Part shown: positions 5,090-53,802 of the stretch, in pieces
Numbering within the stretch: the first letter of the stretch is position 1
Layout of the letters: each line of letters begins with the position of its first letter
Position numbers and translations under genes: made by a program
Source of the DNA: Paracoccus lichenicola
GTDB lineage: Bacteria; Pseudomonadota; Alphaproteobacteria; Rhodobacterales; Rhodobacteraceae
Direction of reading: 5' to 3'
Assembly: GCF_009708075.1 (NCBI RefSeq)
Contig: NZ_WMBT01000003.1
Location: forward strand, 310,001-374,000
Length of the DNA stretch: 64,000 nt
The notes under the pieces: model-generated
What the model was told of the DNA's origin: nothing
Seen by the model: only the letters and a program-made list of their open reading frames with translations
Database searches by the model: none

Positions 5090-5091
5090 TC

Positions 5092-17083: not shown

Positions 17084-17279
17084 GAAGGGGGGCGTTGCCC
17101 CCCGTCCTTCGGACTCCCCCCAGGATATTTTCGGTCCGTCGCAGGCCTGCTTTGGACGCTAAATATCCTCGGGGTGAGACGCGCCCGGAAAAAGGTCCAG
17201 TGGACCTTTTTCAGCGGCGAACGCCTGCCGCCATGCGGCAGGCAGGGGGGTGGAAAACCCCCGGCTTTGGCGAAACGGA
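17084..17279. repeat. Two facing GGATATTT-type 3'-end elements (copies C1 and C2)
   Basis: This 196-base gap between the convergent genes yghU and ilvC holds two elements pointing at each other. C1 on the plus strand right after yghU has the hairpin GGGGGGC-GTT-GCCCCCC, then TCCCCCCAGGATATTTT. C2 on the minus strand after ilvC has the hairpin CCGGGGG-loop-CCCCC, about 50 unique bases, then CCGAGGATATTTAGCGTCC and AAAGCAGG. Each gene therefore has its own sense-oriented copy. No gene is seen here. Confidence 0.7.
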
Positions 17280-23334: not shown

Positions 23335-24251
23335 TCGAGATCCGCAACCTGACCCGCCTTTACGCCGGGATGCCGGTGGTGGACGATGTCAGCCTGACCG
23401 TGGAGCGGGGACAGCTTCTGGTGCTGGTCGGCACCTCGGGGTCGGGCAAGACCACGCTTCTGCGCATGATCAACCGCCTGGTCGAGCCGTCGTCGGGCCG
23501 CGTGCTGATCGAGGGCGTGGACACCGCCACCCTGCCCGCCCATCTGCTGCGCCGCCGGATCGGCTATGCCATCCAGGGCCACGGGCTGTTCCCGCACCGC
23601 ACGGTCGCGCAGAACATCGCCACCGTGCCGCGCCTGCTGGGCTGGCCGCGCGCGCGGATTGCCGCGCGTGTCGAGGAACTGCTGGACCTGTTCCAGATGG
23701 ACCCGGCGGCGTTCCGCGACCGGATGCCGCACCAGCTGTCCGGCGGCCAGGCGCAGCGCGTGGGCGTGGCCCGCGCCTTGGCCGCCAGGCCCGACCTGCT
23801 CTTGATGGACGAACCCTTCGGCGCGCTGGACCCGCTGATCCGCGCCAAGGCGCAGGCCGACCTCAAGGACATCCAGCGCCGCCTTGGCACCACGCTGATC
23901 CTGGTGACCCACGACATGGCCGAAGCCGTGGCCCTGGGCGACCGCATCGCCGTCATGGATCACGGCAAGCTGCTGCAGGACGACAGGCCCGCGCGCATCC
24001 TGACCGATCCGGCGACGCCCTTCGTGGCCGACCTGATCGGCACGGCGGACCGGGCGCTGCGGCTGCTGTCGCTGATCCCGGTCGGCGCCATCGCGGTCCC
24101 GGGCGAGGCCGAAGGCGCGCCCATCGCCCCCGGCGCCACCCTGCGCGACGCCCTGGCCGAATGCCTGTGGAGCGGCCGGTCCGCCCTGCCCGTCGAAGGC
24201 GGCGGCGTGGTCACGCTGGACGCCCTGCGCGCGCAGGCCCGCCACCCATGA
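23331..24251 (+). CDS. yehX: YehX-type ABC transporter ATP-binding protein
   Basis: The 306-residue ATPase has Walker A GTSGSGKTT (33-41), the Q-loop in YAIQGHGLFPH, the signature LSGGQAQR, Walker B LLLMDEPFGALDP and the switch His in LVTHDM. The C-terminal part (about 235-306) corresponds to the tandem CBS-like regulatory region of glycine betaine ATPases but is short. It energises the two permeases encoded on each side. Confidence 0.9.
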   Translation: MIEIRNLTRLYAGMPVVDDVSLTVERGQLLVLVGTSGSGKTTLLRMINRLVEPSSGRVLIEGVDTATLPAHLLRRRIGYAIQGHGLFPHRTVAQNIATVPRLLGWPRARIAARVEELLDLFQMDPAAFRDRMPHQLSGGQAQRVGVARALAARPDLLLMDEPFGALDPLIRAKAQADLKDIQRRLGTTLILVTHDMAEAVALGDRIAVMDHGKLLQDDRPARILTDPATPFVADLIGTADRALRLLSLIPVGAIAVPGEAEGAPIAPGATLRDALAECLWSGRSALPVEGGGVVTLDALRAQARHP

Positions 24252-24982
24252 CCGGCCGCATCCTGCTGGCGGGGGCCGGGCTGTTCCTGCTGGGTTTCCT
24301 GGTCTCGCCCGCCAGCTTCGCCCCGCTGTTCCAGCCCTTCACCCGCAACAACGCCCCGGCGATCTATGCGCAGACCAGCCTTCTGTCGCTGACCTTGTCG
24401 CACCTGGCCATCGTGGCGGTTGCCGTCGCGGCCTCGACCGTCGTCGGACTGGCGCTGGCGATCCTGGTCACGCGGCGCGCGGGGCGAGAGTTCCTGCCGC
24501 TCGCCCGCACCGTCACCGCTGTGGGCCAGACCTTTCCGCCCGTCGCGGTGCTGGCGCTGGCGGTGCCGGTCCTGGGCTTCGGCACCGGGCCGACGCTGGT
24601 GGCGCTGTTCCTTTATGGCCTGCTGCCCGTCTTCGAGACGGCGCTGGCCGGGCTGACCGGCCAGCCGCCCGCCATCATTGATGCCGCGCGCGGCATGGGC
24701 CTGACGCCGGGCCAAAGGCTGTGGCAGATCGACCTGCCGCTGGCCCTGCCCCTGCTGCTGGCGGGGATGCGGCTGACCGCCGTGATCTCGCTGGGAACGG
24801 CGACTATCGGATCCACCGTCGCCGCCCGCACCCTGGGCGAGGTCATCATCGCCGGGCTTCTGTCCTCGAACACCGCCTTTGTCCTGCAGGGCGGGTTGGT
24901 CGTGGGCATCCTGGCGGTGCTGATCCACCACGGGTTCCAGGGATTGGAGAACGGTGTGAGGCGGCGGATGGGGCTGGAGTGA
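24248..24982 (+). CDS. yehW: YehW-type ABC transporter permease
   Basis: The 244-residue permease has about six transmembrane helices and the permease cytoplasmic loop (AARGMGLTPGQRLWQIDLPLALPLLLAGMRLT). It overlaps the ATPase gene as ATGA and completes a YehZYXW set with two different permeases. The 215-bp multi-hairpin repeat begins almost directly after its stop. Confidence 0.88.
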   Translation: MTGRILLAGAGLFLLGFLVSPASFAPLFQPFTRNNAPAIYAQTSLLSLTLSHLAIVAVAVAASTVVGLALAILVTRRAGREFLPLARTVTAVGQTFPPVAVLALAVPVLGFGTGPTLVALFLYGLLPVFETALAGLTGQPPAIIDAARGMGLTPGQRLWQIDLPLALPLLLAGMRLTAVISLGTATIGSTVAARTLGEVIIAGLLSSNTAFVLQGGLVVGILAVLIHHGFQGLENGVRRRMGLE

Positions 24983-24984
24983 CC

Positions 24985-25207
24985 TGATTTGGCGAAGGCC
25001 ATCGCCTTCGCCACGTCACAACATCGCAACCGGAACCGCCGGGCTTCAAAGGCCCGGCCAGCGCCCGCCCCGCCCCCAAGCGGGCGCTTCACGCCCCCCC
25101 CTCCTCGGGGCGGGCGCCGGCCTTCCGTGGTCGCAGGGCTTCACCGTCTTTGGTTGCAGCATCGGACAAAGGGCGCGGGAAATGCGATGCATTTCCTGAT
25201 CCCGCCT
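24985..25207 (+). repeat. Multi-hairpin convergent-gene repeat, copy 1
   Basis: This ~220-bp element lies between the convergent genes yehW and glgP. In order it has hairpin 1, GGCGAAGG...CCTTCGCC (24991-25012); hairpin 2, GCCGGGC-TTCAAAG-GCCCGGC (25038-25059); a long GC-rich stem-loop region with GCGCCCGCC and GGCGGGCGC arms (25060-25125); and hairpin 3, GGAAATGC...GCATTTCC, enclosed by GCGGG/CCCGC (25175-25206). Two further copies lie at 42073-42285 (inverted) and 52928-53138. No protein-coding frame is conserved among the three. Confidence 0.85.
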
Positions 25208-25232
25208 TGACAGGTTCCCCTTGACCGCAGGG

Positions 25233-27620
25233 TCAGATCGCCACCGGCAGCACGTTCCAGATGTCGGTCATGTATCCCCGGATCGTCCGGTCCGAGGAGA
25301 AGAACCCCGACCGCGCGATGTTGAGCGCCGCCATCCGGTCCCAGGACGCGCTGTCGCGATAGGCCGTATCGACGCGCCGCTGCGTGGCGAAGTAGTCGTC
25401 GAAATCGCTGGCGACCAGGAAGGGATCGTCGTTCCAGGTCCGGTCCAGCAGCGTGTAATAGCTTTCGGCCCGGCCAAAGCGCCCTTCGGCGATCAGGTGC
25501 AGCGCGGCACGCAGATCCTCGCTTTTCTCGATGGCGCGGCGGGCATGGCCGGGGGTGGCGGTCTCGGCCGCGGCCCCTTCCGCCGTCAGGCCGAACAGGA
25601 AGAAGTTCTCGGTCCCGACCAGCTCGCGGATTTCCACGTTCGCCCCGTCCAGCGTGCCAATGGTCAAGGCGCCGTTCATGGTGAACTTCATGTTGCCGGT
25701 GCCCGAGGCCTCTTTCCCCGCGGTGCTGATCTGTTCGGACAGGTCGGCGGCGGGGATCAGATCCTCGGCCATCGAGACGTTGTAGTTCGGCGGATAGGCG
25801 ATCTGGAGGTATTTCGACGTGACCGGATCGCTGTTGATGGTCGCGGCCACGTCGTTGATCAGGTGGATCACCGATTTCGCCAGCCAGTATGCCGGGGCCG
25901 CCTTGCCGCCGAAGATCTTGATGCGCGGCGTCCAGTCGCCATTCGGATCGTCATGGATGCGCTTCCACAGGGCGATGGCTTCCAGGATGTTCAGAAGCTG
26001 GCGCTTGTATTCGTGGATGCGCTTGACCTGGATGTCGAAGATCGCGTCCGGGTCGGCCTTGATCCCAAGGTTCGCCAGCACGCCGTTCGACAGCCACACC
26101 TTGTTGGCGCGCTTGACCTGGCCAAGCGTCTCGCGGAAGCCCGCGTCCTCGGCATGGGGTTCCAGGCCGCGCAGCTGTTCCAGGTCGGCCGTCCAGCCCT
26201 CGCCGATGGTGTCGTCCAGAAGCTGCGCCAGGCCCGGATTGGCCATGCGCAGCCAGCGGCGGGGGGTGACGCCGTTGGTCTGGTTCACGATCCGGTCGGG
26301 ATGCAGCCTGTGCAGGTCGGCAAAGACCGTGTCCTTGACCAGTTCGGTATGCAGCGCCGAAACGCCGTTCACCTTGCCCGCCATGATGAAGGCCAGCTCG
26401 CCCATGTGCACCTGGTCGTGCCGGACGATGCCGACATGGGGGGGACGGTGGCTGGTCGCGCGGTGATGATCGTCGATCATCTGGATGATCTGCATGTGGC
26501 GGGGCAGCACGCCGCCCAGAAGCCAGGTGGACCACCGCTCCAGCGCCTCGGGCATCAGGGTGTGGTTGGTATAGTTCAGCGTGCGCTGCGCCAGGTCATG
26601 CGCCCCCTCGAAGGACAGGCCGTGGTCGTCCATCAGCAGGCGGATCAGTTCCGGCCCGGCGATCGCGGGATGGGTGTCGTTGAGCTGCATCGCCACCTTG
26701 TCGGGCAGCAGCTGCAGGTCGCCATGTTCCTGCAGGAAGCGCCGCAGGATGTCCTGCAGGGACGCCGCCGTCAGGAAATATTCCTGCTTCAGCCGCAACT
26801 CCTTGCCCGCGTCCGTCGTGTCGTCGGGGTAAAGCACGCGCGACAGGGTGCGGGCCAGGGCCTCGGGTTCCGCCGCCGCCGTGTGGTCGCCCGCGTTGAA
26901 GCGGTGCAGGTCCAGCAGCGTCGTCGGATGCGCCCCCCACAGGCGCAGGGTGTTGGCCCAGTGGCCGCCCCAGCCGACGACCGGCGTGTCATAGGCGCGC
27001 GCGATCACGCTTTCGCCGGGATGCCAGACGGCCCGGCCATCGACGGTTTCGACATGCCCCTTGAAGCCCACCTCGTAGCTGTAGTCGAGCTTGACGAATT
27101 CCCAGGGGTGGGGCTGGTTCAGCCAGTCCTCGGGCGTCTCGACCTGCTGGCCGCCCTCGAACCGCTGGCGGAACAACCCGTGTTCATAGCGGATGCCATA
27201 GCCGAAGGCCGGGCATTGCAGCGACGACAGCGATTCCATGAAGCAGGCCGCCAGCCGCCCCAGGCCGCCGTTGCCGAGCGCGGCGTCGGGTTCGTTGTCC
27301 AGGATTTCCTGCCGGTCGAGACCCAGCATCCGCAGCGCCTCCTCCATGGGCCTTTCCAGCCGCAGGTTGATGATCGCGTCATCCAGGATCCGCCCGATCA
27401 GGAATTCCATCGACAGATAGCAGACGCGCTTGGCCCCCTGGTCGCGCGCGGCGCGGAAGGCATCGACCCAGGTTCCCGCGATCAGGTCGCGCACCGCATA
27501 GCTGACGGCCAGCCGCCAGTCGAAGGTCGTGGCGAATTCCGCCCCGCGCCCCTGGCTGTGGGTCAGGTGGTGGAGGATCTGGTCGCGCAGGGCCAATGCC
27601 GTCGGAGGAGTTTTCAACAT
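25233..27620 (-). CDS. glgP: Glycogen/starch phosphorylase
   Basis: GlgP releases glucose-1-phosphate from the non-reducing ends of glycogen. The protein of about 795 residues carries the pyridoxal-phosphate lysine in GKEASGTGNMKFTMNGALT, the GGLGRLAACFMESL segment and PGHARRAIEKSED-type phosphorylase features. I place the start at 27620 (MLKTPPTAL); a start at 27653 adds 11 residues and lacks an RBS. It is the last gene of the glg operon, separated from glgX by 183 bases in which I see no gene, only GC-rich inverted repeats. Confidence 0.95.
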   Translation of the reverse strand: MLKTPPTALALRDQILHHLTHSQGRGAEFATTFDWRLAVSYAVRDLIAGTWVDAFRAARDQGAKRVCYLSMEFLIGRILDDAIINLRLERPMEEALRMLGLDRQEILDNEPDAALGNGGLGRLAACFMESLSSLQCPAFGYGIRYEHGLFRQRFEGGQQVETPEDWLNQPHPWEFVKLDYSYEVGFKGHVETVDGRAVWHPGESVIARAYDTPVVGWGGHWANTLRLWGAHPTTLLDLHRFNAGDHTAAAEPEALARTLSRVLYPDDTTDAGKELRLKQEYFLTAASLQDILRRFLQEHGDLQLLPDKVAMQLNDTHPAIAGPELIRLLMDDHGLSFEGAHDLAQRTLNYTNHTLMPEALERWSTWLLGGVLPRHMQIIQMIDDHHRATSHRPPHVGIVRHDQVHMGELAFIMAGKVNGVSALHTELVKDTVFADLHRLHPDRIVNQTNGVTPRRWLRMANPGLAQLLDDTIGEGWTADLEQLRGLEPHAEDAGFRETLGQVKRANKVWLSNGVLANLGIKADPDAIFDIQVKRIHEYKRQLLNILEAIALWKRIHDDPNGDWTPRIKIFGGKAAPAYWLAKSVIHLINDVAATINSDPVTSKYLQIAYPPNYNVSMAEDLIPAADLSEQISTAGKEASGTGNMKFTMNGALTIGTLDGANVEIRELVGTENFFLFGLTAEGAAAETATPGHARRAIEKSEDLRAALHLIAEGRFGRAESYYTLLDRTWNDDPFLVASDFDDYFATQRRVDTAYRDSASWDRMAALNIARSGFFSSDRTIRGYMTDIWNVLPVAI

Positions 27621-38426: not shown

Positions 38427-38572
38427 GGTGGGGTTTCACCCCACCATGCGCCGGTAAACGGTGGGGTGAAACCCCACCCTACACCCGAGGACCGTGGCAA
38501 AGAACCCGTAGGGTGCGTGCTTGCACGCACCGATGCCGCCGGAAAAAGGTGCGTGCAAGCACGCACCCTACG
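38421..38572. repeat. Two pairs of GTAGGGTG palindromic (REP-like) repeats
   Basis: Pair 1: GTGTAGGGTGGGGTTTCACC and on to 38445, with its inverse at 38460-38483. Pair 2: CGTAGGGTGCGTGCTTGCAC and on to 38531, with its inverse at 38549-38572. Each unit is itself palindromic (TGGGGT..ACCCCA; GTGCGTGC..GCACGCAC). The gap lies between convergent genes whose TAG stop codons (38424-38426 and 38568-38570, minus) are both part of the repeat motif. Confidence 0.9.
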
Positions 38573-41487: not shown

Positions 41488-42033
41488 ATGACGATCAGGA
41501 CTGCCCAGGACGTGCTGGATTTCTGGTTTTCCCCCGACATGGAACCCCACTGGTTCGCCAAGTCGGACGCCATCGACGCCCGCATCCGCGAGGGCTTCGC
41601 CGAGACCTATCAGGCCGCGCATCGCCGCCAACTGGACGGTTGGGCCGCAACGCCCGATGGCGCGCTGGCCCTGGCGATCGTGCTGGACCAGGTCCCGCGC
41701 AACATCTTTCGCGGCACGCCCCGCGCCTTCGAATCGGACGACCTTGCGCTGGACCATGCCCGCGCCGCCGTGGACGCGGGCTTCGACAGCCAGGTCGATC
41801 CGAAGCGGCGGGTGTTTTTCTACCTGCCCTTCGAACACAGCGAGGATCTGCCCGACCAGACCCGCTCGGTCGAGCTGTTCGAGACCCTGGGCGATCCGGG
41901 CTATCTGGACTATGCCGTCCGGCACCGCGACATCATCGAGAAATTCGGCCGCTTTCCGCATCGCAACGCGATCCTGGACCGCCCGAACACCCCGGACGAG
42001 GACGAGTTCCTGAAGACGCACAAGGGGTTTTGA
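41488..42033 (+). CDS. DUF924 family protein
   Basis: The 181-residue protein has the DUF924 pattern: VLDFWFSPDMEPHWFAKSDAIDARIREGF, then LALAIVLDQVPRNIFRGTPRAFESD, and FFYLPFEHSEDLPDQ. The fold is helical, TPR-like; the function is unknown. It starts three bases after the pirin stop and is certainly cotranscribed. Confidence 0.9.
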   Translation: MTIRTAQDVLDFWFSPDMEPHWFAKSDAIDARIREGFAETYQAAHRRQLDGWAATPDGALALAIVLDQVPRNIFRGTPRAFESDDLALDHARAAVDAGFDSQVDPKRRVFFYLPFEHSEDLPDQTRSVELFETLGDPGYLDYAVRHRDIIEKFGRFPHRNAILDRPNTPDEDEFLKTHKGF

Positions 42034-42072
42034 CGGGCAACTGAGTTTGCTGCAGGCAAAGACCACGATCCA

Positions 42073-42285
42073 GGGCGGGACAAGGAAATGCACTGCATTT
42101 CCCCCGCCCTTCGTGTGACGGCGCAATCAGAGATGGTGCAGCCCCGCGACCACATAAGGCCAGCGCCCGACCCGAGGGGGGCGTGAAGCGCCCGCCTGGG
42201 GGCGGGCGGGCGCTGGCCGGGCCTTTGAGGCCCGGCGGTTCCGGTGGATATGTTCCGCTGTGGCGAAGGCGATGGCCTTCGCCAG
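42073..42285 (-). repeat. Multi-hairpin convergent-gene repeat, copy 2
   Basis: This inverted copy lies between the convergent DUF924 gene and the monooxygenase gene at 42295. Read on the minus strand it has GGCGAAGG..CCTTCGCC (42262-42283), GCCGGGC..GCCCGGC, the GC-rich GCGCCCGCC region and GGAAATGC..GCATTTCC enclosed by GGGCGGG-like arms. Hairpin arms are conserved while loops and some spacers differ from the copies at 24985 and 52928. Confidence 0.85.
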
Positions 42286-42294
42286 ACTTCCGTC

Positions 42295-42615
42295 CTATCC
42301 CGCCCGGCCGATCGTCTGGATCGCGGTGAACCCCTCGAACCGGGGACCGCCCTCGTACAGCTTCTTCGTCTCGCCCGCGCGGGCATGGGCGTCGCGGAAC
42401 TGCTGGCTGCGGGTCCAGCCGCGGAAATGATCCTCGGATTTCCACACCGTGTGCGAGGCGTAAAGGCGCCGCCCGTCCTCCTCGGGACCCTTCAGCATGT
42501 GGAATTCGACAAAGCCCGGCAGCTCGTCCAGCTTGCTGTCGCGCGACAGCCACAGGGCCTCGAAGGCCTCGGCGTTCTCGACGGGCACGGTGAAGCGGTT
42601 CATGGCGATGAACAT
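42295..42615 (-). CDS. Antibiotic biosynthesis monooxygenase-domain protein (HmoA-like)
   Basis: The 106-residue protein is a dimeric ferredoxin-like ABM domain (MFIAMNRFTVPVENAEAFEALW, then GFVEFHMLKGPEEDGRRLYASHTVWKSEDHFRGW). This pattern matches the heme-degrading HmoA/IsdG-like subgroup; heme degradation is possible but unproven. The start at 42615 follows AAAGGA. A start at 42648 would add 11 unlikely residues. Confidence 0.82.
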   Translation of the reverse strand: MFIAMNRFTVPVENAEAFEALWLSRDSKLDELPGFVEFHMLKGPEEDGRRLYASHTVWKSEDHFRGWTRSQQFRDAHARAGETKKLYEGGPRFEGFTAIQTIGRAG

Positions 42616-44328: not shown

Positions 44329-44334
44329 AGGGGC

Positions 44335-44414
44335 GGTGCGTGCAAGCACGCACCCTACGCATGGGCAATCCCGACCGGCAGGGCCACCCCGTAGGGTGCG
44401 TGCTTGCACGCACC
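44335..44414. repeat. Pair of GTAGGGTGCGTGC palindromic (REP-like) repeats
   Basis: Inverted units at 44335-44359 and 44390-44414, each of the form CGTAGGGTGCGTGCTTGCAC or its inverse, are separated by 30 bases. They match pair 2 at 38507-38572 base for base and lie between the convergent FAH and RND genes. Confidence 0.9.
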
Positions 44415-44458
44415 TTGGTTCAACACCACCCATGCAGGCGCCGCGCGCCATTCCCTTC

Positions 44459-52459: not shown

Positions 52460-52912
52460 ATGATCACGCAGAAGATGAAATACGCGCTCAAGGCGATGCT
52501 GGTGCTGGGCGACGAGGCCGCCCAACCCGTCCCCGAGGCCCTGACCATCGAAAAGATCGCCCGCCGGTCGGACACGCCCAAGAGGTTCCTGGAACAGATC
52601 CTGCTGGAATTGCGCAACGCGGGCATGGTCAGCTCGATTCGCGGGCGGTCGGGCGGCTATCTGCTGATCAAGCGGCCCGCCGACATTTCCATATCCGAAC
52701 TGCTGCGCCTGATCGACGGTCCCATCGCCCCCCTGCCCTGCCTGTCCCGCCGCGCCTATCAACGCTGCGAGGATTGCCGGGACGAGGCGTCGTGCCGCAT
52801 CCGCAAGGTCTTCGCCGAGATCTTCTGGTCCTACCTGATCCTGATCGAATCGCTGACGCTGGAGGACATGCTGCGGTCCGAACAGGTGGCGGACCAGGTG
52901 ATCGGGGCCTAG
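52460..52912 (+). CDS. Rrf2 family transcriptional regulator with Cys cluster
   Basis: The 150-residue protein has an Rrf2 winged helix-turn-helix (MITQKMKYALKAMLVLGDEA, then IEKIARRSDTPKRFLEQILLEL, RGRSGGYLL). Four cysteines C94, C103, C106 and C112 follow, in PCLSRRAYQRCEDC and EASCR. Rrf2 proteins such as IscR, RirA and NsrR bind an Fe-S cluster through a similar cluster of cysteines and sense iron, NO or redox state. Four cysteines here instead of the usual three is noteworthy. The regulon cannot be read from this window. Confidence 0.88.
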   Translation: MITQKMKYALKAMLVLGDEAAQPVPEALTIEKIARRSDTPKRFLEQILLELRNAGMVSSIRGRSGGYLLIKRPADISISELLRLIDGPIAPLPCLSRRAYQRCEDCRDEASCRIRKVFAEIFWSYLILIESLTLEDMLRSEQVADQVIGA

Positions 52913-52927
52913 AGGCAAGGTTTGGCT

Positions 52928-53138
52928 GGCGAAGGCCATCGCCTTCGCCACGCTGCGACATCGCCACCCGAACCGCCGGGCTTCAAAAGCCCGGCCAGCG
53001 CCCGCCCCGCCCCCAGGCGGGCGCTTCACGCCCCCCTCGGGTCGGGCGCCGGCCTTCCGTGGTCATGGGATTGCCCCGTCTCTGGTGGCGATGTCGTTTG
53101 GCGGTCGGGGGAAACGCAATGCGTTTCCTGATCCCGCC
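52928..53138 (+). repeat. Multi-hairpin convergent-gene repeat, copy 3
   Basis: This copy lies between the convergent Rrf2 and rluA-type genes, in the same direction as copy 1. GGCGAAGG..CCTTCGCC (52928-52949), GCCGGGC..GCCCGGC, the GCGCCCGCC/GGCGGGCGC region and a terminal hairpin are conserved. In the last hairpin, GGAAACGCAATGCGTTTCC carries paired changes relative to GGAAATGCGATGCATTTCC in copy 1: T to C on the left and A to G on the right. That is a compensated base pair. Confidence 0.85.
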
Positions 53139-53151
53139 CGGCAGCGGTTTC

Positions 53152-53802
53152 CTAAAACGGCGCCGCCTGGCTGAAGCTGACCTGAACCCCGCTGTCGGGA
53201 TGGCGCAGCCGCAGGCTTTCGGCGTGCAGCATCAGGCGGGGATGGTCCGCCGCGGCACCCGTGGCATACAGCGGATCGCCCAGGATCGGGTGGCCGGTCT
53301 CGGCCATGTGGACGCGCAACTGGTGGCTGCGCCCGGTCAGCGGGAACAGCCGCACGCGGGTTTCATCATCGCTCGCGCGGATCACCCGCCACTCGGTCAG
53401 CGCGGGGCGGCCCGCCTCGTGATCGACCTTCTGGCGCGGGCGGTTCGGCCAATCGACGATCAGCGGCAGATCGACGGTTCCGGTCTTGGGTTCCAGCCGC
53501 CCGGCCAGGCGGGCGACATAGGCCTTTTTCACGCGCCGATCCTCGAACTGCCTGGACAGGGTGCGTTGCGCGTGCGGCGTCAGGCCGAAGACCATCACGC
53601 CCGAGGTGTCCTGGTCCAGCCGGTGCACCAGCAGCACCGTGGGAAAGGCCCCGCGCAACCGGTTGATGAGGCAATCGTCCTTGCCCTCTCCCCTGCCGGG
53701 GACGGACAGCAGGCCCGCAGGCTTGGCCACCACCAGGATCTCGTGATCGGCATGGATCACCTGCGGCGCGTCAGGCGGCGGGGCATAGGCGGGCAAGGTC
53801 AC
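53152..53802 (-). CDS. RluA family pseudouridine synthase
   Basis: The 216-residue enzyme has the RluA motif HRLDQDTSGVMVF with the catalytic Asp, the N-terminal VIHADHEILVVAKPAGLLSVPG segment and the C-terminal GRSHQLRVHMAETGHPILGDPLY motif. It lacks an S4 domain, like RluA/TruC. The target uridine in rRNA or tRNA is not known; RluA (23S U746 and tRNA U32) is most likely. The GTG start at 53802 overlaps the LysE stop (GTGA). Confidence 0.87.
   Translation of the reverse strand: MTLPAYAPPPDAPQVIHADHEILVVAKPAGLLSVPGRGEGKDDCLINRLRGAFPTVLLVHRLDQDTSGVMVFGLTPHAQRTLSRQFEDRRVKKAYVARLAGRLEPKTGTVDLPLIVDWPNRPRQKVDHEAGRPALTEWRVIRASDDETRVRLFPLTGRSHQLRVHMAETGHPILGDPLYATGAAADHPRLMLHAESLRLRHPDSGVQVSFSQAAPF

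Follow-up and report, generated by a model that had tools for sequence, protein, structure and literature searches.

The window analysed here, a 64,000-nt stretch of the Paracoccus lichenicola genome, carries three copies of a multi-hairpin repeat that is present far beyond chance, with at least 34 full-length copies in the genome and full-length homologs in other genera. The element occurs in many dispersed copies, compensatory changes maintain its helices, and sites orthologous between species have been found filled, empty or bearing remnants. It is probably a Rhodobacteraceae-specific, non-autonomous mobile structured repeat of BIME/ERIC-like character, which would be moved in trans by a putative enzyme and kept at the 3' ends of genes. 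The original prediction, made from the sequence of the window, had described three copies of about 215 bp, the second one inverted, and had offered a 3'-end element, a DNA site and a mobile repeat as explanations; among these the mobile repeat has become the best supported, and a 3'-end role is compatible with it. The copies lie at the predicted places with ends shifted by a few nt (each covariance-model match has the same ends as the element given here), and their neighbours have been assigned by the gene caller and Pfam:

24988..25208, + strand: element copy 1
24248..24982, + strand: BPD_transp_1 permease, convergent neighbour of copy 1
25233..27596, - strand: carbohydrate phosphorylase, convergent neighbour of copy 1
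42072..42286, - strand: element copy 2
41488..42033, + strand: DUF924, convergent neighbour of copy 2
42295..42615, - strand: ABM (HmoA-like), convergent neighbour of copy 2
52925..53140, + strand: element copy 3
52460..52912, + strand: Rrf2, convergent neighbour of copy 3
53152..53802, - strand: pseudouridine synthase, convergent neighbour of copy 3

All three copies are thus placed between convergent genes, as had been claimed, and the TGGC start of the element lies 7, 10 and 14 nt from the preceding stop codon in copies 1, 2 and 3, in agreement with the predicted start within about 15 bases. The common order of hairpins, with conserved arms and variable loops, has likewise been recovered in the three copies.

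Within this genome (3.70 Mb, 56 contigs), BLAST has yielded at least 45 aligned pieces, which merge to at least 40 places, a lower bound since 40 of 144 candidates were scored. At least 34 of them run full-length from H1 to H5; six pieces are partial or interrupted and have been left out of the pair counts, one of which (L033) carries another palindrome inserted in its centre. The covariance model R1 matches at least 21 of 125 genomes of the genus Paracoccus (best 18 candidates per genome) and at least 116 of 295 Rhodobacteraceae genomes (best 8 candidates per genome), the host being included in both numbers and stricter filters being used in searches spanning more than 40 genomes. In a class-wide sample, judged on the best 12 candidates per genome, at least 4 of 190 genomes match, namely the host, two other family members and one outsider, and this only match outside the Rhodobacteraceae is weak (25 bits). 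The element is nearly restricted to the Rhodobacteraceae. Scoring of the best 150 candidates per genome has given 72 copies in Pseudorhodobacter sp. PARRP1 (G394), 50 in Frigidibacter albus SP32 (G352), 39 in P. shandongensis wg2 (G114), 32 in R. viridis, 29 in G389 and 14 each in G173 and G127; for Rhodobacter sp. SGA-6-6 all 150 scored candidates match, which corresponds to at least 150 copies. This family of structured repeats is large and deeply conserved, and it extends, within a bacterial family of importance, to the model organism R. capsulatus, where strain DSM 1710 gives 43 matches. A covariance-model scan of the host genome and its relatives, a covariation test and a tabulation of the flanking genes had been proposed together with the original prediction, and upon these analyses the observation has held and grown.

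The element is about 180 to 225 nt long and shows a fixed order of H1, H2, a central four-segment domain, a variable linker and H5, which in copy 1 takes the following form:

24990..25013, + strand: H1 hairpin, 10-bp stem with CATC loop (helix 1)
25039..25057, + strand: H2 hairpin (helix 2), with both-side change in all 7 pairs
25056..25122, + strand: central C/G-rich domain of mutually complementary segments A, B, A', B', closed by GGNC/GNCC
25171..25206, + strand: H5 terminal hairpin, two stacked stems with a 4-nt bulge (helices 4 and 5)

Model R1 comprises 215 positions and 40 pairs. Among the 34 full copies from this genome, pairing is present in 97.7% of the 1355 cells. Both sides have changed in 5 pairs and in 18 cells, where shuffling gives 2.2 and 3.8; among 500 shuffles, 8 reach the 5 pairs and none the 18 cells. 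An alignment of 70 copies from 20 genomes, which has been fitted to the model and thus leans towards the modelled structure, shows 95.8% of 2750 cells paired and both-side changes in 30 of the 40 pairs and 252 cells (shuffles, 14.1 and 56.5, with none of 500 reaching either value), while slid structures on the same copies give at most 38 both-side cells. For helix 1, 96.8% of the cells are paired family-wide, and all 10 pairs have changed on both sides. The clear excess of compensatory changes, lying well above the shuffles, strongly supports the earlier suggestion that the pairing is held by selection; the lack of such an excess had been named as contrary evidence. The single compensated pair that had been read from copies 1 and 3, GGAAATGC/GCATTTCC becoming GGAAACGC/GCGTTTCC, is a real change, and this position is C-G in 24, U-A in 9 and unpaired in 1 of the 34 full copies. 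Indeed, whole H1 arms swap jointly, which is visible by eye: Paracoccus has TGGCGAAGGC/GCCTTCGCCA, G173 has TGACCGAGGC/GCCTCGGTCA, and G389 combines TGACCAAGGC with CCTTGGTCA. The architecture is retained in other genera despite wholly different arms.

The centre is shortened in 6 of the 34 full copies (L028, L031, L032, L034, L036, L038) and allows two alternative pairings. The 5' arm can join either the middle segment, where 97.4% of 643 cells are paired and 8 double changes occur, or the 3' arm, for which the values are 94.2% of 825 cells and 19 double changes; the outer P3 pairing of the model is one of these two pairings with support. A coherent change in all four central segments has been seen in L072, and the four-segment picture as such is taken from plain pattern matching, to which 56 of 78 cores conform. 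A module of H2 plus centre has also been encountered in other genera without the usual H1 and H5, sometimes near unrelated hairpins (L104, L105, L106, L110, L111, L114), and most of eight weaker matches inspected represent the same module in other surroundings. Since it occurs without the usual H1 and H5, this module may be the most ancient part of the element, or one that spreads by itself.

Wobble pairs bear on the level at which the structure acts. On the + strand, G.U occupies 39 and A.C (a G.U for the opposite strand) 69 of 2750 cells; as G.U does not exceed A.C, there is no sign of selection on a single RNA strand, and either DNA or both strands matter. A strand-specific RNA, judged by wobble, has accordingly been discarded for want of any bias. 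The broader idea of a dispersed small RNA or cis-regulatory RNA with a function of its own could draw on the elaborate conserved fold and the possible alternative pairings, but we regard it as highly improbable, considering the missing G.U excess, the orientation of co-directional copies, which shows no clear preference (44 with and 36 against transcription, although SGA-6-6 by itself leans 24 to 12), and the lack of an Rfam match. At gathering score, the window has no Rfam match. A search of six loci from other genera, with E = 1 as the limit, gave four matches, all of them far below gathering.

Gene context has been scored with an in-house, unpublished codon-score script as gene caller. Of the 40 pieces in this genome, 29 lie at convergent and 10 at co-directional junctions (5 each way) and none at a divergent one, with one piece unscorable; the 64 gene pairs of the window comprise 11 convergent, 43 co-directional and 10 divergent ones, and the element sits in 3 of the 11 convergent junctions. 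For SGA-6-6, 400 kb picked around listed copies has been sampled, in which 65 of 67 elements entered the tally as 26 convergent, 36 co-directional and 3 divergent, against a junction background of 65, 253 and 61 in the same 400 kb (convergent versus divergent, Fisher p ~2e-6). Ten further genomes from eight groups add 119 copies, taken from 53 of 55 matches of one search and 66 of 71 of another, with 77 convergent, 34 co-directional and 8 divergent. Pooled over the twelve genomes, 223 scored copies split into 132 convergent, 80 co-directional and 11 divergent, 6 of the 11 divergent calls coming from Frigidibacter and being taken as called by the script. The statement that the element always lies between convergent genes consequently stands for the three window copies and fails genome-wide, as well as over the twelve genomes, for the co-directional share; the many copies in operons or between divergent genes that had been named as contrary evidence have not appeared, divergent junctions accounting for so few of the scored copies.

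At convergent junctions, the median distance to the stop codons is 9 to 22 nt in the Paracoccus and Rhodobacter groups and larger, 52 to 116 nt, in Pseudorhodobacter, Frigidibacter and G173/G389, and co-directional copies lie at a median of 18 to 59 nt from the upstream stop and 96 to 197 nt from the next start. The convergent majority, the closeness to stops at both types of junction and the Watson-Crick pairing retained for both strands would suit a host-owned bidirectional 3'-end element, one selected where it stands to terminate transcription in both directions or to stop exonucleases and not primarily mobile, and we grant this reading a real though less than even chance. A T-tract has been found behind neither H1 nor H5, whichever strand is read (T fraction 0.11 to 0.18 against a background of 0.158, taken over the 12 nt beyond each hairpin in 34 copies, both strands considered, with an approximate inner H5 edge on the minus strand), so that a classical intrinsic terminator is unlikely. 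A host-owned element is further at odds with several related species in which the same junction holds no copy and the stop codons abut, and with the wide range of match numbers in related genomes, from none detected in some to at least 150 in one.

A mobile repeat, which we prefer, is indicated by the comparison of orthologous sites. The joined flanks of seven sites have been searched in six Paracoccus species, and every site is empty in at least one of them. At the junction of copy 3, the element is absent in five of the six Paracoccus relatives, four of which have stop codons overlapping as CTAG, and the sixth, P. shandongensis, carries it in the opposite orientation. Remnants have been found at orthologous Paracoccus sites as well, consisting of H1 alone, H5 alone or H1 plus H5. 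Altogether, 43 same-junction pairs with both flanks orthologous (five species and one single locus) comprise 25 with like and 18 with opposite orientation, a count of non-independent pairs that used 30 G114 pieces (versus the 39 G114 matches counted) and in which one of 11 same-orientation pairs between this genome (G000) and G114, L032/L249, consists of two pieces, one per orientation; four additional pairs are matched on one flank. Orientation is in conflict at seven junctions (L009, L010, L014, L027, L028, L030 and L237/L089), and the species groupings at L009, L027 and L030 disagree with each other. G000 and P. shandongensis have 16 junctions in common, 5 of them with opposite orientation, where a random expectation based on ~600 convergent junctions, extrapolated from the window, would give ~2 and ~1.

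The spacers between element and stop codon help to separate inheritance from new insertion. Their mean identity is 0.59 for pairs of the same orientation (n = 30), 0.46 for opposite orientation (n = 24) and 0.40 for random pairs (n = 395), as plain means over non-independent pairs from which spacers below 4 or above 70 nt and one resultless pair have been excluded; between G000 and P. shandongensis, 8 of 12 same-orientation spacers reach an identity of at least 0.7. Because their spacers are near random, opposite-orientation pairs are best read as separate insertions and not as in-place flips, and many same-orientation pairs look inherited, some not. The expectation that same-site pairs would be closest relatives has been dropped: the elements at shared sites are not in general each other's closest relatives, which is read as a mixture of inheritance and separate insertion, and for the same reason gene conversion among copies may act too. 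We infer, with good support, that different species have separately gained the element in opposite orientations at the same convergent junctions. This apparent repeated gain amounts to a natural experiment on structured spacers between convergent genes.

The element is of interest, too, for the mover that a hairpin array of 215 nt would need where no clear RAYT is present. Empty orthologous sites are shared with MITEs and small IS; terminal inverted repeats and target duplications are not. As for a target site duplication, the longest k-mer shared by the flanks is that of shuffled pairs in the two genomes compared, and flank coincidences of CTAG or TGACC have been noticed by eye at two sites alone. 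No long terminal inverted repeats have been seen, the ends H1 and H5 are dissimilar with a hint of TGGC...GCCA of at most 4 nt by eye, and the search for conserved termini or a target has given nothing past ~6 to 9 weakly conserved nt. An autonomous parent or mover between close SGA-6-6 copies has been considered and set aside, as the genes there look housekeeping (SmpB, AcpP, Gdh, DsbB, names given from a reading of the translations). No plasmid or phage carriage of a window copy has been found in a search that may omit records near this genome; with an R. capsulatus copy, one core-like stretch has been matched on a Leisingera plasmid.

A REP/BIME mosaic mobilised by a RAYT (HUH Y1) transposase would account for palindromic, intergenic and multicopy units with a 3'-end bias, and for the modularity seen in lone H1, lone H5, H1 plus H5 remnants and the core module alone. 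Eight host genomes with 14 to at least 150 copies have been searched with Y1_Tnp (PF01797), a search whose control was positive in five known genomes. There was no match in seven of them (G000, G114, G127, G352, R. capsulatus, R. viridis and SGA-6-6), and G394, with its 72 copies, gave one borderline match at 22.7 bits against a cut-off of 23; G012 and G022 were also without match, and Y1 genes are present in three other Paracoccus species (G008, G015, G021). A conserved tag is likewise missing: of 70 copies across the family, 3 contain GTAG, in each case away from the ends, and 4 have CGTC directly behind H1, a position where 10 of the 34 copies in this genome carry it. The RAYT-mobilised REP is therefore disfavoured, and we take it to be very unlikely.

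In SGA-6-6 (L425-L444), a strong strand polarity has been observed over 146 listed copies on 14 contigs, where neighbouring copies lie on the same strand in 102 and on different strands in 30 cases (p ~2e-10). The orientation tends to follow GC skew in 20-kb stretches, with 20 + and 9 - copies at positive and 6 + and 30 - copies at negative skew (Fisher p 3e-5), a link that is moderate (Spearman 0.45, p 0.046) over the 20 stretches, which were picked for holding listed copies, and weak for convergent copies alone (16 - and 2 + at negative versus 5 - and 3 + at positive skew). Together with the low number of wobble pairs (39 of 2750 cells) and with REPs of other bacteria that are described, in the available text of PMC5082802, to interact with Pol I, IHF and gyrase, this polarity could argue for a DNA-level architectural site, for example for gyrase, an IHF-like protein or as a marker of replication or segregation polarity, with convergent junctions favoured by positive supercoils. 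Such a site is nevertheless unlikely to be the explanation, because no polarity has been found in G394, G352, G000 and G114, and 104 of 125 genomes of the genus are without match (best 18 candidates per genome, strict filters). Polarity as a general rule has been abandoned, SGA-6-6 alone among five genomes showing it. Returning to a mobile repeat, the missing target duplication and the strong polarity in one dense genome would perhaps point to a single-stranded DNA route; its replication-coupled form is offered as a hypothesis, since the skew link is weak in convergent copies and polarity is missing in four genomes.

No named family had been recognised for the element at the outset, which holds for Rfam and for the literature searched. 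The element has not been found in the available portions of this literature (including PMC3733652, PMC8632094, PMC2267715, PMC1590033, PMC2864571, PMC5107571, PMC2229807 and PMC5082802), which covers few subscription papers; older genome papers on R. capsulatus, for example, fall outside it. Kindred kinds are REP/BIME, ERIC, YPAL, CIR and Br-REP1. According to the portions available of PMC5082802, Br-REP1, reported from Bradyrhizobium and Rhodopseudomonas, is strikingly alike in its setting, with three palindromes in overlapping 3'-UTRs of convergent genes in Bradyrhizobium, and also occurs in many copies with very unequal abundance between species; it differs in sequence, order and host, and its central 20-nt unit is widely repeated (~200 sites), whereas the ordered 215-nt array is what usually recurs here. 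REP/BIME sequences, as the accessible text of PMC3733652 describes them, share the palindromic, extragenic character, the location mostly between convergent and unidirectional ORFs and the variability among relatives. They are 20 to 40 bp long and mostly GTAG/CGTC-tagged, the GTAG type being associated with RAYTs, in contrast to the 215-nt array with neither a conserved tag nor a clear Y1 gene; Paracoccus and Rhodobacter are not named in the main text of that paper.

The remaining kinds are compared on the basis of the available text of PMC2229807. The enterobacterial ERIC/RU-1 (127 bp) is intergenic, structured and dispersed like the element, but has terminal inverted repeats, TA termini and target duplications, none of which has been detected in the element with its several separate hairpins. 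YPAL/RU-2 of Yersinia (168 bp) comes close with internal inverted repeats, without TA termini and without A+T-richness, and its mobility has been deduced from empty versus filled sites as it is here; it differs by target duplications of 3 to 26 bp, which have not been detected in the element, and by its unrelated host group. The element shares with both the character of a multicopy structured intergenic repeat of the 100 to 200 bp kind and is set apart by the descriptions; it is not filed under ERIC or YPAL because its architecture differs. CIR of Caulobacter and Brucella are alphaproteobacterial intergenic repeats with hairpin arms and a linker, conserved between species, whereas their ~110 bp carry a GANTC methylation (CcrM) site, a motif present in none of the 34 copies of this genome and in 3 of 70 family-wide. 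As the tests for REP, MITE, CIR and intrinsic terminator have failed, the element is regarded as a new variety of dispersed structured intergenic repeat.

Concerning mechanism and function, the putative trans-acting enzyme would recognise the hairpins, perhaps as single-stranded DNA, and insertions would be retained mostly just behind stop codons, because other places would hurt promoters or operons. Between convergent genes, very stable hairpins would then close each transcript; they may protect its 3' end or, together with Rho, limit read-through. The element may have a two-way 3'-end role, and a 3'-end barrier with Rho-terminated transcripts and 3' exonucleases is possible, as is an architectural DNA role. 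More speculatively, and rather doubtful in this full form, the element could represent a family-wide class of selfish multi-hairpin DNA that is moved in a single-stranded, replication-coupled manner by a non-REP enzyme, homes repeatedly and in either orientation to convergent stop-codon junctions, acts as a removable 200-bp two-way 3'-end insulator and switches folds in its centre.

Other repeats share the window with the element. Its convergent junctions are bimodal in length: 4 of 11 measure at most 36 bp, two of them with genes overlapping by 4, and the other 7 at least 130 bp, with palindromic repeats inside as seen by eye. A second palindromic repeat (GTAGGGTG.../...CACCCTAC) at 38427-38567 and 44329-44458 fills two more convergent junctions; some units of this GTAGGGTG/CACCCTAC repeat have GTGCGTGC/GCACGCAC arms, and similar units adjoin element copies in SGA-6-6. 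A third dispersed repeat (families D3/D4), composed of AAATATCC and G/C-rich arms, occurs in four window copies at 5091, 9001, 17146 and 35044, and a AAAAAGGTCCAGTGGACCTTTTT palindrome lies in the convergent junction at 17084-17279, a near copy of which sits in the centre of element L033. In Rhodobacter MAGs (L276, L296, L306, L316), contig ends have been found 14 to 75 nt from the element core, and matches at other sequence starts are similar; the repeat seems to break short-read assemblies.
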